Below the pieces are notes generated by a model. That model searched no databases and was not told the origin of the DNA. It worked only from the letters and a program-made list of their open reading frames with translations. The position numbers and the translations under genes are program-made. Positions 14,081-19,278 of a stretch of 64,000 nt of DNA are shown one piece after another. Source of the DNA: Gemmatimonadota bacterium (lineage in GTDB: Bacteria; Gemmatimonadota; Gemmatimonadetes; Longimicrobiales; Gaopeijiaceae); the NCBI GenBank assembly GCA_029262115.1, contig JAJCZZ010000016.1, positions 1 through 64,000 of the forward strand, read 5' to 3'. Positions within the stretch are counted from its first letter, which is position 1. Every line of letters begins with the position of its first letter.

Positions 14081-14937
14081 GTCCCACCCTGCACCTCCAT
14101 GTGGAAGTCGTCGGCCGGGAGCCCGGTCCGGACGTCCCGACGTTCGTACTTCTCCACGGGTTCGGTGGCTCGCTGTTCTCGTGGCGGACATGGGTGCCGG
14201 AGCTGAGCCGGCGTGGGCACGTCGTGCTGGTGGACCTCAAGGGCTTCGGCAAAGCGGATCGGCCCGAGGACGACGCGTACGGTCCGGAGGACCAGGCGGC
14301 GTTGGTCTCCGAGATGATTTACGAGCGAGGTTTAGAGCACGTTACGCTCGTAGGCCACTCCCTCGGCGGCGGGGTGGCGCTCATCACGGCCATCACCATA
14401 CGGCAACGAGAGCCCGGACGAATCGAGCGGCTCGTCGTGGTGGCCGGGGCGGCCTATCGACAGCGCCTGCCGCCCTTCACCGTGGCCGCACGCTGGCCAG
14501 GGCTGAGCGGAGCGGTGGTGCGTGTGCTCACCACGCGCAGGATCGTTCGCTGGGTTCTGCGCTCGATCGTATACGACCGGTCGACCGTCACGCCGGAGCA
14601 GGTCGGCGGCTACTCCGATCCCATCGACTCACCCAACGCCCGACGGGCACTGTGGAGGGCGGCGCGCTCCATCGTCCCACCGGAGTTGGAGAATTGGTGC
14701 GCGCGCTACCCTGAACTGGACGTTCCGGCGCTGCTCCTCTGGGGCGACCACGACCGGGTGATCCCGCTTTGGGTCGGTCAACGCTTGCAGGCCGACCTAC
14801 CCCGGGGTCATCTCCACGTGTTGGAGGCTTGCGGCCACCTTCCAGCCGAGGAGTGCCCCCAGCGCTCCGTGCGCGTGCTCCTCGACTTCCTGGACCACAC
14901 GGACGTCACCGAGCCACGATGTCCGCCGTCCAGGTGA
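14077..14937 (+). CDS. Alpha/beta hydrolase
   Basis: A 286-residue alpha/beta hydrolase: oxyanion segment FVLLHGFGGS, nucleophile elbow VGHSLGGG, the acid in LLLWGDHDRVIP and the histidine in ACGHLPAEE complete the catalytic triad. It starts with GTG inside the stop of the YhaN-like gene (GTGA), so it belongs to that operon by position. Whether it has any link to DNA metabolism is unknown; an esterase or lipase-like role is the default. Its last 32 bases overlap, convergently, the 3' end of the OsmC-like gene on the other strand. Confidence 0.9.
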   Translation: MSPTLHLHVEVVGREPGPDVPTFVLLHGFGGSLFSWRTWVPELSRRGHVVLVDLKGFGKADRPEDDAYGPEDQAALVSEMIYERGLEHVTLVGHSLGGGVALITAITIRQREPGRIERLVVVAGAAYRQRLPPFTVAARWPGLSGAVVRVLTTRRIVRWVLRSIVYDRSTVTPEQVGGYSDPIDSPNARRALWRAARSIVPPELENWCARYPELDVPALLLWGDHDRVIPLWVGQRLQADLPRGHLHVLEACGHLPAEECPQRSVRVLLDFLDHTDVTEPRCPPSR

Positions 14938-15370
14938 TCTTGACCGCGTCCTTGATGCTCTGGGCCGTCGGACACTTGCCTATATGGGTCTCGAGCGCCC
15001 GGTCGACCTTGGCCGTATCGGTTTCAGGGGGCAGGTGCATCGTATAGTGGACGTGGATCTCCTTGAGAAGAACGATCCCGTCTTCGATCTCGTTTCGTCC
15101 CTCGACCCGGCAACTGATGTCATCGTCGGGAATGCGGACCTTACGCACCTCCAGTGCGCCATTGAGTGTACCGAGTAGTCAGGCAGCGGCGGCGGCCACC
15201 AAGTAGTCCACCGGGAGGGGCAGGTTCGGCTGGCTGTCCAAGCCGTAGTGCGCTTTGATCGGGCCGTGGACTCCGAACTCGAGCGTGGTGCCGTCCTCGA
15301 GGGTGGCACGCCGGTGGATTCCGCCCACCCTGGCCACCGATGCTTTTGCGATGTAAAAGGCGTCGCTCAT
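14906..15370 (-). CDS. OsmC-like peroxiredoxin read through an in-frame UGA (probable selenoprotein)
   Basis: From ATG at 15370 (GAGGAG 5 bases upstream) the frame runs 63 codons (start MSDAFYIAKASVARV) to a UGA at 15181-15179, then stays open 90 more codons in the same frame to a TGA at 14908-14906. The product is 154 residues, the usual OsmC length. Both parts are OsmC. The UGA falls in LVAAAAA-U-LLGTL, where OsmC proteins have the peroxidatic cysteine (E. coli AAHAACFSM). The second redox cysteine is present (GKCPTAQS, Cys133). A hairpin suited to a SECIS lies just downstream. OsmC reduces organic hydroperoxides, and OsmC-like selenoproteins have been reported from metagenomes. The alternative is a nonsense mutation of TGC. 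It is last in an operon with pgeF. Confidence 0.75.
15143..15159 (-). promoter_or_regulatory. Candidate bacterial SECIS hairpin downstream of the OsmC-like UGA
   Basis: In mRNA sense, CGCAC pairs with GTGCG around the loop TGGAG, with one further G-U pair at the base. The loop begins 26 bases after the UGA and has G as its second base. The rules I recall for bacterial SECIS elements are an apical loop 16-37 bases from the UGA with a G among its first two bases; this fits. The hairpin is short and sits in coding sequence, so support is moderate. Confidence 0.5.
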
Positions 15371-15582
15371 CCGAACTCCTCTTCGTAGGGATCCAATCCG
15401 CCCGGCTCGTACCCCGCACATCGGAGAACCGGCAGGGGCGGGTACTTCGGGTAGCAAGGGTCGTTCCGAGAACGCTCGCACATGTAGAATCGGGAGCCCC
15501 TCCGATTTCCCGTAACTCGATGATGAGCGCACGTCCCGCACAGCCCGGCGAGGTGAGACACGATCCGGGGTCCCTCCGTCAC
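15367..15582 (-). CDS. Small Cys-rich protein (putative zinc-binding), unknown function
   Basis: A 71-residue protein with cysteines in LCGTCAHHR, FYMCERSRNDPC and VLRCAGYEP, spaced like a small zinc- or iron-binding knuckle. The core (CGTC, YMCERS, YPKYPPLPVLRC) resembles short hypothetical proteins found in several bacterial phyla; no function is known to me. It starts with GTG inside the pgeF stop (GTGA) and ends inside the OsmC-like ATG (ATGA), so translation of the three genes is coupled. No signal peptide or membrane segment. A metal-site or redox role next to an OsmC peroxidase is possible but only inferred. Confidence 0.75.
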   Translation of the reverse strand: MTEGPRIVSHLAGLCGTCAHHRVTGNRRGSRFYMCERSRNDPCYPKYPPLPVLRCAGYEPGGLDPYEEEFG

Positions 15583-16334
15583 CTGCGGATACCGATGTAG
15601 CCCACCTGCCGCTCCGCGTCACCACCTCGGTGGGAGAAGTGGCCGGTCCCGCACCGGGTGCAGCGGCTGGAGACCGACACGTCGCCGGGAGTCACACCGG
15701 CGGCCAGGACCCGATCTGAGAGCGCCGCGCGAAGGTCCAGATGCGTCGGCCCTGCGGGAGCCGGAAGCCCCAGCCCTTCGAAGACTTCAGGACCGACCTC
15801 GTAGCAGTCCGCACAGATCGCGGGCCCCAGGTGGACCACGAGATCCTCGACCCTCGATCCGAAGCGATCACGGAGAAGCCCCGCGCTGCTCTCGAAGACC
15901 CCCGCCGCCACCCCACGCCAACCGGCATGCACGATCGCGACAGCCCTCTGAACGGGGTCCACGAGAAACGCCGGAACGCAGTCGGCGACCGTCACTGTGA
16001 GAAGGACGCCGGGGCTCCGTGTCGCGTGGCCATCGCACGGCTCCGCCACGAACAGACCGGGGGGGCCATCGCCATGGGCCCTGACCACAGCCCCGTGCAC
16101 CTGGTGTGCATGAACAGCCCTCGGCAGGCCGACCTGCGACCGCAACCGGGACCACGCCGACATGGCGTCCGCCGACCGTGCCCGGGCGCCGAACAACGCC
16201 AGGTCGAAGGGCTGATCCGGCGCCCCCCGACCGGTCGTCCCCTGAGCGAGCCATGGAAACCGTTCGACCCACCCCGAGTGCGTCACGCCGTCCGGGTGTT
16301 CGGTGGGTGATTCTTCGGCGATACTATTAGCCAT
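15579..16334 (-). CDS. pgeF: YfiH/PgeF family multicopper-oxidase-like purine nucleoside phosphorylase
   Basis: A 251-residue member of the laccase-domain family (YfiH, LACC1). The zinc-site motifs are present: VHAHQVHG, VTVADCVPAF, IVHAGWRG and GPAICADCYEVG. Members phosphorolyse or hydrolyse purine nucleosides, and in E. coli the protein also edits misincorporated L-serine in peptidoglycan precursors. The ATG at 16334 is preceded by GGGGAG; longer readings lack a ribosome site. It is the first gene of a coupled trio with the small Cys-rich protein and the OsmC-like gene, and diverges from sucA 43 bases away, so the two promoters must be close or overlapping. Confidence 0.9.
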   Translation of the reverse strand: MANSIAEESPTEHPDGVTHSGWVERFPWLAQGTTGRGAPDQPFDLALFGARARSADAMSAWSRLRSQVGLPRAVHAHQVHGAVVRAHGDGPPGLFVAEPCDGHATRSPGVLLTVTVADCVPAFLVDPVQRAVAIVHAGWRGVAAGVFESSAGLLRDRFGSRVEDLVVHLGPAICADCYEVGPEVFEGLGLPAPAGPTHLDLRAALSDRVLAAGVTPGDVSVSSRCTRCGTGHFSHRGGDAERQVGYIGIRR

Positions 16335-16377
16335 CACGCTCCCCGATGGGAGGGAGCCGAGACCCCCATGTCGCTTC

Positions 16378-19278
16378 ATGGACGAACCCCTCTTCGACAG
16401 TCTGAACGCCGCTTACGCCCAGGCGATGTTCGAACAGTACGCCCGGAACCCTGAATCCGTGCCGGATGGTTGGCAACGGTACTTCGGTGACGGCGGGTCC
16501 CGTGCGGAATCCGACGGGCTGATCGTACCGGAGCAGCTCAACGGACACCGGCAGTCCGTGACGGCCGTGGTCGCGCCTCCCCAGGCCGCAACCGCCCCGG
16601 TCGCTCCCACCGCTCCCACGCCCACCATTGCGGCCACTCCGGCCACCAGGGTGAGCGACGAAGGTTCTCCGGACGTGAACGAAAGCCTGCGTCGTGCGCT
16701 TCCGGTCGTGTCCAGGGCGGCAGCTCTCCTCCAGGCATTCCGTGACCACGGCCACCGTCTGGCGCGGATCGACCCGCTCGGCAGCGAGCCTCCCGGACAT
16801 CCCCAACTCACGCCGTCGTTCTTCGGAACGACGATGGAGGAGCTCGACGAGCTCCCGGCGTCTTTGGTGGTGGAAAATGGACGGTCCGGATCGGTCAGCG
16901 ACGCCCTGAACGAATTGAGGGAGGTCTACGCAGGATCGGTCGGCTACGAGTTCGAGCACCTCGACGACCATGTGCGGGTGGACTGGCTCTGGGAGCAAGT
17001 GGCCCAAGGCACGCACCGTGCCGAGCTCTCCAAGGAGGAGCGTATCGAGCTCCTGGAGGGGCTGACTTCGACCGAAGGGCTCGAGCAGTTCCTCGGACGT
17101 GCCTATCTCGGCCAGAAGCGTTTCAGCGTCGAGGGGAACGACATCCTCGTTCCCATGCTCCGCAGGGCGCTCCGTGAGGCGCTGAAGGATGGTGCGCGCG
17201 AGGTCGTCCTGGGGATGGCGCATCGCGGGCGCCTGAACGTTCTGACGCACATCCTGGGCGTCAGCTACTCCGAACTGTTGGCAGAATTCGAGGGACCGAG
17301 CATGAAGGGCGGTGCGCTCGACGTGCCCGGCACAGGCGACGTGAAGTACCACCACGGAGCCCGCGGGACCATGGAGTTCGACAGCCTGGGCTCCATCAGG
17401 GTCGACCTCATGCCGAACCCGAGCCACCTGGAGTTCGTGAACCCTGTGGTGGACGGCGTGGCTCGTGCCCGCCAGTTCTCCGGGCCCAGCCGAGGCGACG
17501 AACCCGACCCCAGATGCGTGGTCCCGGTGCTGATGCACGGTGACGCCGCGTTCGCCGCCGAGGGCGTCGTTGCGGAATCGCTCAACATGGCTCGTCTCCA
17601 CGGCTACGACGTGGGCGGGACCATTCACATCATCGTGAACAACCAGGTCGGCTTCACGACCGACCCCCAGGAAGGACGCTCCACCGCCTACTCCAGCGAT
17701 CTGGCGAAGGGATACGGCATTCCCGTTGTGCATGTGAACGCAGACGACCCCGAGGCTTGCATGGCGGCCGTGCGTCTGGCCATGGCGTACCGAGCCGAGT
17801 TTCTCGACGACTTCGTCATCGACCTCGTCGGGTACCGCAGGCACGGTCACAACGAGGGCGACGAGCCGAGTTACACGCAGCCGATCCTGTACAAGAAGAT
17901 CAAGGACCACCCGACCGTCCGGACGTTGTACGCCGAGGAGTTGGTCGAGCGGGGTGTCCTGAGTGGCGAAGAGGCCGAAGCTATGGTCGAGCGCGTGGCA
18001 GACACGCTGCGCTCCGCCCAGGACCACGTTCGCAGTCTCGACGAGAGCGATCTCCCCAGCGGGGACGTGGTCGTCGATGCGGAGTACGAAACGCCCGTCG
18101 TACCGGAGACCACCGGAGTGGCGTTTGAGGACCTCAGCGCGGTCAACGACGCGCTATTGACGCTCCCGGAGGGTTTCTCGCCGCACCCCAAATTGTGGCG
18201 TCAGCTCTCTCGACGGGGCGACGAGTGGGGCCCCGACAAGTCATTGGACTGGGGACACGCAGAGGCCCTCGCTTTCGGCTCCCTGCTTTTGGACGGTATA
18301 CCTGTTCGCCTCACGGGTCAGGACTCACAACGGGGTACGTTCAGTCACCGCCACCTCGTGCTCCACGACGTCGACAACGGAGTGGAGTTGATGCCGCTCC
18401 GGCAGGTGGCCGACACTCGAATCGAAGTCTACAACTCGCCGCTTACCGAGACGGCTACCATCGGGTTCGAGTACGGATACTCTGTGGGCGCGGACCGGGA
18501 CCTCGTTCTGTGGGAGGCGCAATTCGGGGACTTCGTCAACGTCGCTCAGGTCATGATCGACCAGTTCCTCTCGTCCGGGTTCACCAAGTGGGGTCAGTAT
18601 TCCCGCTTGGTGCTTCTTCTTCCGCACGGACACGAGGGACAGGGACCGGAGCACTCCAGCGCCCGCCTGGAGCGGTTCCTCCAACTATGCGCGGAGGGCA
18701 ACATGCGCATCACGTACCCGACCACTCCCGCCCAGTACTTCCACATGCTGCGTCGCCAGGCGCTTCGTCGGCCGGAACGCCCCCTGGTGGTGATGACGCC
18801 CAAGAGCCTCCTCCGCCATCCGTCGGCCACGTCGCCGGTGTCGGACCTGACCGAGGGGAATTTCCTCCACGTGATCGCCGATCCCACCGTCGAGGACGCC
18901 TCCTCCGTCCGCCGTCTGGTGCTCTGCTCCGGAAAGGTGTACTACGACATCCAGGGACACGACCGGCGCGGCGCGGCGACCGCCGCCGCCGTTGCGCGTA
19001 TGGAACTTTTGTATCCATTCCCAATGGATGCGCTGCAGACGCTCCTCTCGCAGTACCCCAACCTCAAGGAAGTCGTCTGGGCACAGGAGGAGCCTCGCAA
19101 CATGGGCGCTCTGACGTTCGTCGGGCCACGTCTTCGGGCGGTCGTGCCCCGCACCATTCCGATGTCGCACGTCGCGCGGCCCGATCGGGCCAGTCCCGCC
19201 GAAGGGAAGGCGCGTAAGCATGCCCAGCACCAGGAGGAGGTCGTCCTCGATGCTCTCGGCCTCAGCGCCAGTGACTGA
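16378..19278 (+). CDS. sucA: 2-oxoglutarate dehydrogenase E1 component
   Basis: A 966-residue thiamine-diphosphate enzyme of the TCA cycle that decarboxylates 2-oxoglutarate and passes the succinyl group to the E2 subunit. The N-terminus (LFDSLNAAYAQAMFEQYARN) is the E2-binding peptide of this family. The dehydrogenase core has VLGMAHRGRLNVL, GDAAFAAEGVV and VNNQVGFTT around 385-427 for TPP and Mg. The C-terminal part has FGDFVNVAQVMIDQF and LPHGHEGQGPEHSS. An alanine/proline-rich linker of about 50 residues follows the first 60. The start is set by the family N-terminus; the ribosome site is weak. No E2 (sucB) or lipoamide dehydrogenase gene is adjacent. Confidence 0.96.
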   Translation: MDEPLFDSLNAAYAQAMFEQYARNPESVPDGWQRYFGDGGSRAESDGLIVPEQLNGHRQSVTAVVAPPQAATAPVAPTAPTPTIAATPATRVSDEGSPDVNESLRRALPVVSRAAALLQAFRDHGHRLARIDPLGSEPPGHPQLTPSFFGTTMEELDELPASLVVENGRSGSVSDALNELREVYAGSVGYEFEHLDDHVRVDWLWEQVAQGTHRAELSKEERIELLEGLTSTEGLEQFLGRAYLGQKRFSVEGNDILVPMLRRALREALKDGAREVVLGMAHRGRLNVLTHILGVSYSELLAEFEGPSMKGGALDVPGTGDVKYHHGARGTMEFDSLGSIRVDLMPNPSHLEFVNPVVDGVARARQFSGPSRGDEPDPRCVVPVLMHGDAAFAAEGVVAESLNMARLHGYDVGGTIHIIVNNQVGFTTDPQEGRSTAYSSDLAKGYGIPVVHVNADDPEACMAAVRLAMAYRAEFLDDFVIDLVGYRRHGHNEGDEPSYTQPILYKKIKDHPTVRTLYAEELVERGVLSGEEAEAMVERVADTLRSAQDHVRSLDESDLPSGDVVVDAEYETPVVPETTGVAFEDLSAVNDALLTLPEGFSPHPKLWRQLSRRGDEWGPDKSLDWGHAEALAFGSLLLDGIPVRLTGQDSQRGTFSHRHLVLHDVDNGVELMPLRQVADTRIEVYNSPLTETATIGFEYGYSVGADRDLVLWEAQFGDFVNVAQVMIDQFLSSGFTKWGQYSRLVLLLPHGHEGQGPEHSSARLERFLQLCAEGNMRITYPTTPAQYFHMLRRQALRRPERPLVVMTPKSLLRHPSATSPVSDLTEGNFLHVIADPTVEDASSVRRLVLCSGKVYYDIQGHDRRGAATAAAVARMELLYPFPMDALQTLLSQYPNLKEVVWAQEEPRNMGALTFVGPRLRAVVPRTIPMSHVARPDRASPAEGKARKHAQHQEEVVLDALGLSASD

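Follow-up and report, generated by a model that had tools for sequence, protein, structure and literature searches.

The record of an OsmC-like selenoprotein with a UxxT motif (U, selenocysteine, Sec) goes back to the Sargasso Sea survey (PMC1088965), and reviews from 2022 and 2026 each include a single OsmC-like selenoprotein family. Here we describe a gene that shares with this family (NCBIfam NF041052, OsmC_like_Se) the OsmC type, Sec at the reactive-Cys position and a bacterial Sec insertion sequence (SECIS) downstream of it. The gene lies on the minus strand (14906–15370) of a 64,000-nucleotide stretch from a Gemmatimonadota bacterium (positions 1 to 64,000 of contig JAJCZZ010000016.1, assembly GCA_029262115.1; hereafter the window), and sequence comparisons leave us nearly certain that its frame represents a functional selenoprotein gene with an OsmC fold and Sec at the active site. 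It differs from the UxxT family in having U-x-x-G-T, with Gly at U+3 and Thr at U+4 both invariant in our alignment of the group (alignment A1), and its protein scored 35.6 bits against NF041052 (curated cut-off, 95), which places it outside that family. Judged by sequence, the window protein belongs to the OsmC superfamily, is of the Sec type like the known OsmC-like selenoprotein and lies outside that defined family; because the window group and a paralogous group (group B, described below) both fall far below the NF041052 cut-off and carry UxxGT rather than UxxT, the group is most aptly described as a new subfamily of OsmC-like selenoproteins. The open-access literature and profile libraries searched contained no annotation of this subfamily, although one may exist elsewhere. 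An initial annotation, made from the DNA letters alone, had invoked OsmC-like selenoproteins reported from metagenome surveys; this precedent is real for the UxxT family, which is a separate subfamily from the one described here.

The reading frame extends from an ATG at 15370–15368, preceded by the ribosome site GAGGAG, to a true stop (TGA) at 14908–14906, with a sole in-frame TGA at codon 64 (15181–15179), and reading through that codon yields a protein of 154 amino acids (aa). The read-through product matched PF02566 (OsmC; E = 3.9 × 10−15, 56.5 bits, cut-off 27.5) over residues 51–147, spanning the UGA, and all 25 aligned relatives matched PF02566 as well. In an alignment with the OsmC proteins of T. 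thermophilus (1ukk) and E. coli (1nye) and with an ordinary Cys-type OsmC also encoded in the source genome (L054), the UGA occupied the reactive-Cys column (LVAAAAA-U-LLGTL against LIAAAHAG-C-FSMAL), where homologues have Cys or Sec, and GKCPTAQS aligned at the second Cys, an invariant column (Cys133, codon TGT at 14972–14974) that corresponds to the resolving Cys of OsmC. The initial annotation had proposed an uninterrupted frame with OsmC sequence on both sides of a single UGA, placement of that UGA at the peroxidatic Cys with the second redox Cys retained, and fragmentation under standard annotation; the first two were borne out by the domain match and the alignment, and the last by the open reading frames (ORFs) of 148 and 80 aa into which standard gene calling would split the gene. 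Relative to Cys-based OsmC and Ohr peroxidases (PF02566; TIGR03562, TIGR03561), the window protein shares the fold, the position of the reactive residue and a second Cys in a C-P motif, but has Sec for Cys, a replaced triad Glu (discussed below) and scores below the subfamily cut-offs. Its AlphaFold model (mean predicted local distance difference test score, 95.3) had YhfA, Ohr and OsmC as its closest solved folds, the best match being PDB 1ml8, which we take to be E. coli YhfA (E = 1.2 × 10−9; template modelling scores, 0.67/0.77). YhfA differs in being a Cys protein, with 22% identity, and its activity is described as unknown (PMC5962072).

Homologues were present in 44 of the 98 related genomes, each full match having one in-frame TGA (one homologue also has a TAG at its end), and in 115 of the 395 genomes of the phylum, with exactly one in-frame TGA in every full match among the matches listed. 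Public species genomes, scanned independently, yielded 76 homologous loci, all with TGA in the reactive-Cys column; these came mostly from Gemmatimonadetes/Longimicrobiales, with some from metagenome-assembled genomes of Acidobacteria and Eisenbacteria. This recurrence agrees with the earlier argument that the position of the UGA was beyond chance. No Cys form of the subfamily was found in the 76 public loci or among the matches listed for the 395 phylum genomes; weak phylum matches that were considered as possible Cys forms proved to be either TGA-containing fragments at contig edges or a B-type gene whose halves, divided at that codon, lie on different contigs. The branch is conserved across Gemmatimonadota and neighbouring phyla, where the literature searched holds almost no selenoprotein work, and is apparently uncatalogued. 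With it, the bacterial selenoproteome gains a large OsmC subfamily that apparently always contains Sec, together with a second beside it; because curated models miss this subfamily, its members are likely to have been called fragments or pseudogenes.

Downstream of the UGA, the messenger RNA is predicted to form a SECIS hairpin (15143–15159, minus strand; GCGCAC, a UGGAG loop and GUGCGU; 6 base pairs (bp), with a G-U pair at the base), the loop of which begins 25 nucleotides (nt) past the UGA. The consensus across relatives was GCGCAC-UGGAG-GUGCG(C/U), and all six stem pairs were formed in each of the 60 distinct aligned sequences (100% of 360 cells), as was six-position pairing in 76 of 76 public loci. 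Three of the six pairs showed double changes affecting both sides in several lineages (C-G to U-A and A-U to G-C), a level of covariation reached by none of 500 shuffles, and controls with a slid register failed. Codon usage was constrained over the same interval: third codon positions varied in the preceding codons but hardly at all from codon +7 to codon +13, and the alanine codon in the stem was GCA in 70 of 75 sequences, whereas at codon −5 alanine was GCA in just 6 of 77. With its 5-nt loop, 6-bp stem, 25-nt spacing and minimum free energy (MFE) of −8.7 kcal/mol, the hairpin satisfies a published bacterial SECIS model (loop of 3–9 nt, stem of 4–16 bp, G in the first two loop positions, 16–37 nt from the UGA, MFE ≤ −7.5; PMC13188914). 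An Rfam scan of window positions 15050–15250 gave no match; SECIS_1 (RF00031) matched neither this hairpin nor its own controls and is uninformative here, since it is a eukaryotic model. A loose scan for SECIS-like elements returned 14 further chance matches in the window, so the hairpin by itself proves nothing; the best of the others (UGA 23175/23179, loop TGGAG) was rejected, as it lies within an exonuclease-like ORF in a different frame.

The source genome (5.45 Mb, 110 contigs, 95.7% complete) encodes all four components of the Sec machinery: a tRNA-Sec with a UCA anticodon (RF01852, 65.9 bits, cut-off 47), SelB (302.7 bits), SelA (527 bits) and SelD (382.5 bits), whose gene also contains an in-frame TGA, at the known Sec position (GAG-U-ACKLG). 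This full set, together with the UGA in selD, indicates that the organism has all the means of inserting Sec at UGA, on which its own SelD also appears to depend. Across the 98 related genomes, selA was present in 42 of the 44 with the selenoprotein gene and in 19 of the 54 without it (Fisher P = 1.8 × 10−10, kinship ignored). The reading frame, the alignment column, the machinery, the SECIS covariation, the conservation and the fold were all computed here, and from them we infer that Sec is inserted at codon 64 in vivo. Separately, strong hairpins were predicted after the UGA region of selD itself (locus L018, contig C17 of the source genome, G000, minus strand), a gene that normal annotation would truncate.

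Three observations count against a selenoprotein with peroxidase activity. When the 60 nt from the UGA were folded as a single sequence, the hairpin was not the predicted minimum-energy structure and the fold was no better than that of shuffles, the sole sign against the hairpin; comparative evidence across loci was used in place of the single-sequence fold. In two gene-bearing genomes (G003, 88% complete; G066, 95% complete but in 440 contigs), no match to selA passed the threshold applied. Finally, the Arg-Glu-Cys triad of XfOhr has its Glu (Glu51) 10 residues before the peroxidatic Cys (Cys61; PMC5962072), a position taken here by Val54, with an invariant Asp55 one residue on (−9 from Sec). 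The selenoprotein part of the initial annotation survives every computational test, and none of the computational refutations that the annotation named arose, whereas its peroxidase part, with the triad Glu off its usual position, is a probable rather than an assured function.

The simplest model nonetheless remains a peroxide-reducing cycle, since Sec64 sits at the peroxidatic-Cys position and Cys133 at the resolving-Cys position, both invariant, so that the reactive residue and second Cys of the Ohr/OsmC arrangement are kept. Under this model, a ribosome reaching the UGA at codon 64 would be supplied with Sec-tRNA(Sec) by SelB bound to the downstream hairpin, SelA having formed it with SelD-derived selenophosphate, and read-through would give the 154-aa OsmC-fold protein. 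The Sec selenolate, predicted to lie on the long central helix at the site of the peroxidatic Cys in OsmC/Ohr, is the probable nucleophile towards an oxidised substrate, of which organic or lipid hydroperoxides are the likeliest candidates. Cys133 would resolve the resulting selenenic acid to a selenenyl-sulfide, and reduction of this bond could then come from a dithiol, for instance a lipoylated protein or thioredoxin.

A selenoprotein that is no hydroperoxide reductase, with a Sec/Cys pair acting instead on, for example, a persulfide, disulfide or electrophile, as the YhfA branch may, is possible, although we think it the less likely case. It would accord with the missing triad Glu alongside invariant Arg20, His35, Lys39 and Asp55, and with YhfA, whose activity is given as unknown (PMC5962072), as the best solved fold match; set against this, the sequence retains the catalytic Cys/Cys layout of OsmC/Ohr, the Ohr/OsmC fold match is nearly as good as that to YhfA, and the catalytic Arg of OsmC proteins sits elsewhere than in Ohr, so that an alternative catalytic constellation could serve (PMC5962072). 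Leaving the peroxide-reducing model as the preferred one, we tentatively entertain a broader proposal: that this is an obligate-Sec OsmC subfamily without a Cys form, using Sec with Arg20, His35, Lys39 and Asp55 in place of the Arg-Glu-Cys triad for a different redox reaction, and that two Sec paralogues arose by duplication, spread widely in Gemmatimonadota and neighbouring phyla and were missed by annotation. The apparent lack of a Cys form is unusual, and allows a test of whether Sec is chemically required.

That the gene is instead an ordinary OsmC gene in which a TGC or TGT Cys codon became TGA, whether as a pseudogene or through a sequencing error, would agree with the two fragments expected from standard gene calling, but is very improbable given the same TGA in all 76 independent loci and in all full matches among the matches listed, flanking frames that are intact on both sides in homologues down to about 45% identity, and a downstream hairpin under selection. 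Least probable of all is a variant code that gives UGA a different amino-acid meaning (Trp or Gly): such codes, with UGA as a sense codon, occur in some bacterial lineages, but here the selenoprotein gene itself and the ORF upstream of it both terminate in UGA, which excludes genome-wide reassignment, the in-frame UGA is confined to a single column, and the genome carries tRNA-Sec (UCA) with the full Sec machinery.

Group B (alignment A3; L132–L145, L148–L151) is a second OsmC-like selenoprotein group that occurs in many Gemmatimonadota, often in the same genomes as the window group, and lies below the NF041052 cut-off. It shares with the window group the UGA at the same column, the UxxGT motif and a hairpin of the GCGCGC-UGGAG-GCGCGC type; it differs in sequence (about 30–41% identity) and in having LTGTFGGALEAR and CPVYRT where the window group has LLGTLNGALEVR and CPTAQS. 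No group B gene was found in the window's genome. Our tree has long branches and does not settle whether the window group (group A) forms one clade against the Cys types.

The selenoprotein gene is the third and last gene of an apparent operon with short overlaps; the initial annotation had placed it last in a coupled operon, with a normal ribosome site. First is a Cu-oxidase_4/YfiH (PgeF)-type gene (15579–16379, minus strand), followed by a Cys-rich 71-aa ORF (15367–15582, minus strand) that has no Pfam match, overlaps the selenoprotein start (ATGA) and may encode a small partner protein that binds metal or takes part in redox chemistry. A 2-oxoglutarate dehydrogenase E1 gene (16303–19278, plus strand) is divergent from the operon. 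Among the 58 loci with enough flanking sequence, the 71-aa ORF adjoined the selenoprotein gene in 19 and PgeF in 18, always on the same strand, and the E1 gene was divergent beyond the operon in 19. Ohr proteins accept electrons from lipoylated proteins, lipoylated E2 proteins being a known type of donor, and the list of fold matches included an Ohr with dihydrolipoamide (PDB 6ebg). As a hint to the electron donor, the closeness of the operon to a gene of the lipoyl-dependent 2-oxoglutarate dehydrogenase complex may be called suggestive but no more.

Matches to NF041052 itself were of a different kind. The sole gene in the phylum sample above its cut-off has Cys in a CxxT motif (C-Y-M-T) and fell in a separate group in the long-branched tree, and three matches in one genus (g7) were ruled out as selenoproteins, being Cys or non-Cys forms. 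In that genus (L159–L161), a tandem pair of OsmC-domain genes with similarity to NF041052 stands beside an AMP-ligase-like gene, and one copy (L161) is without Cys at the reactive column.
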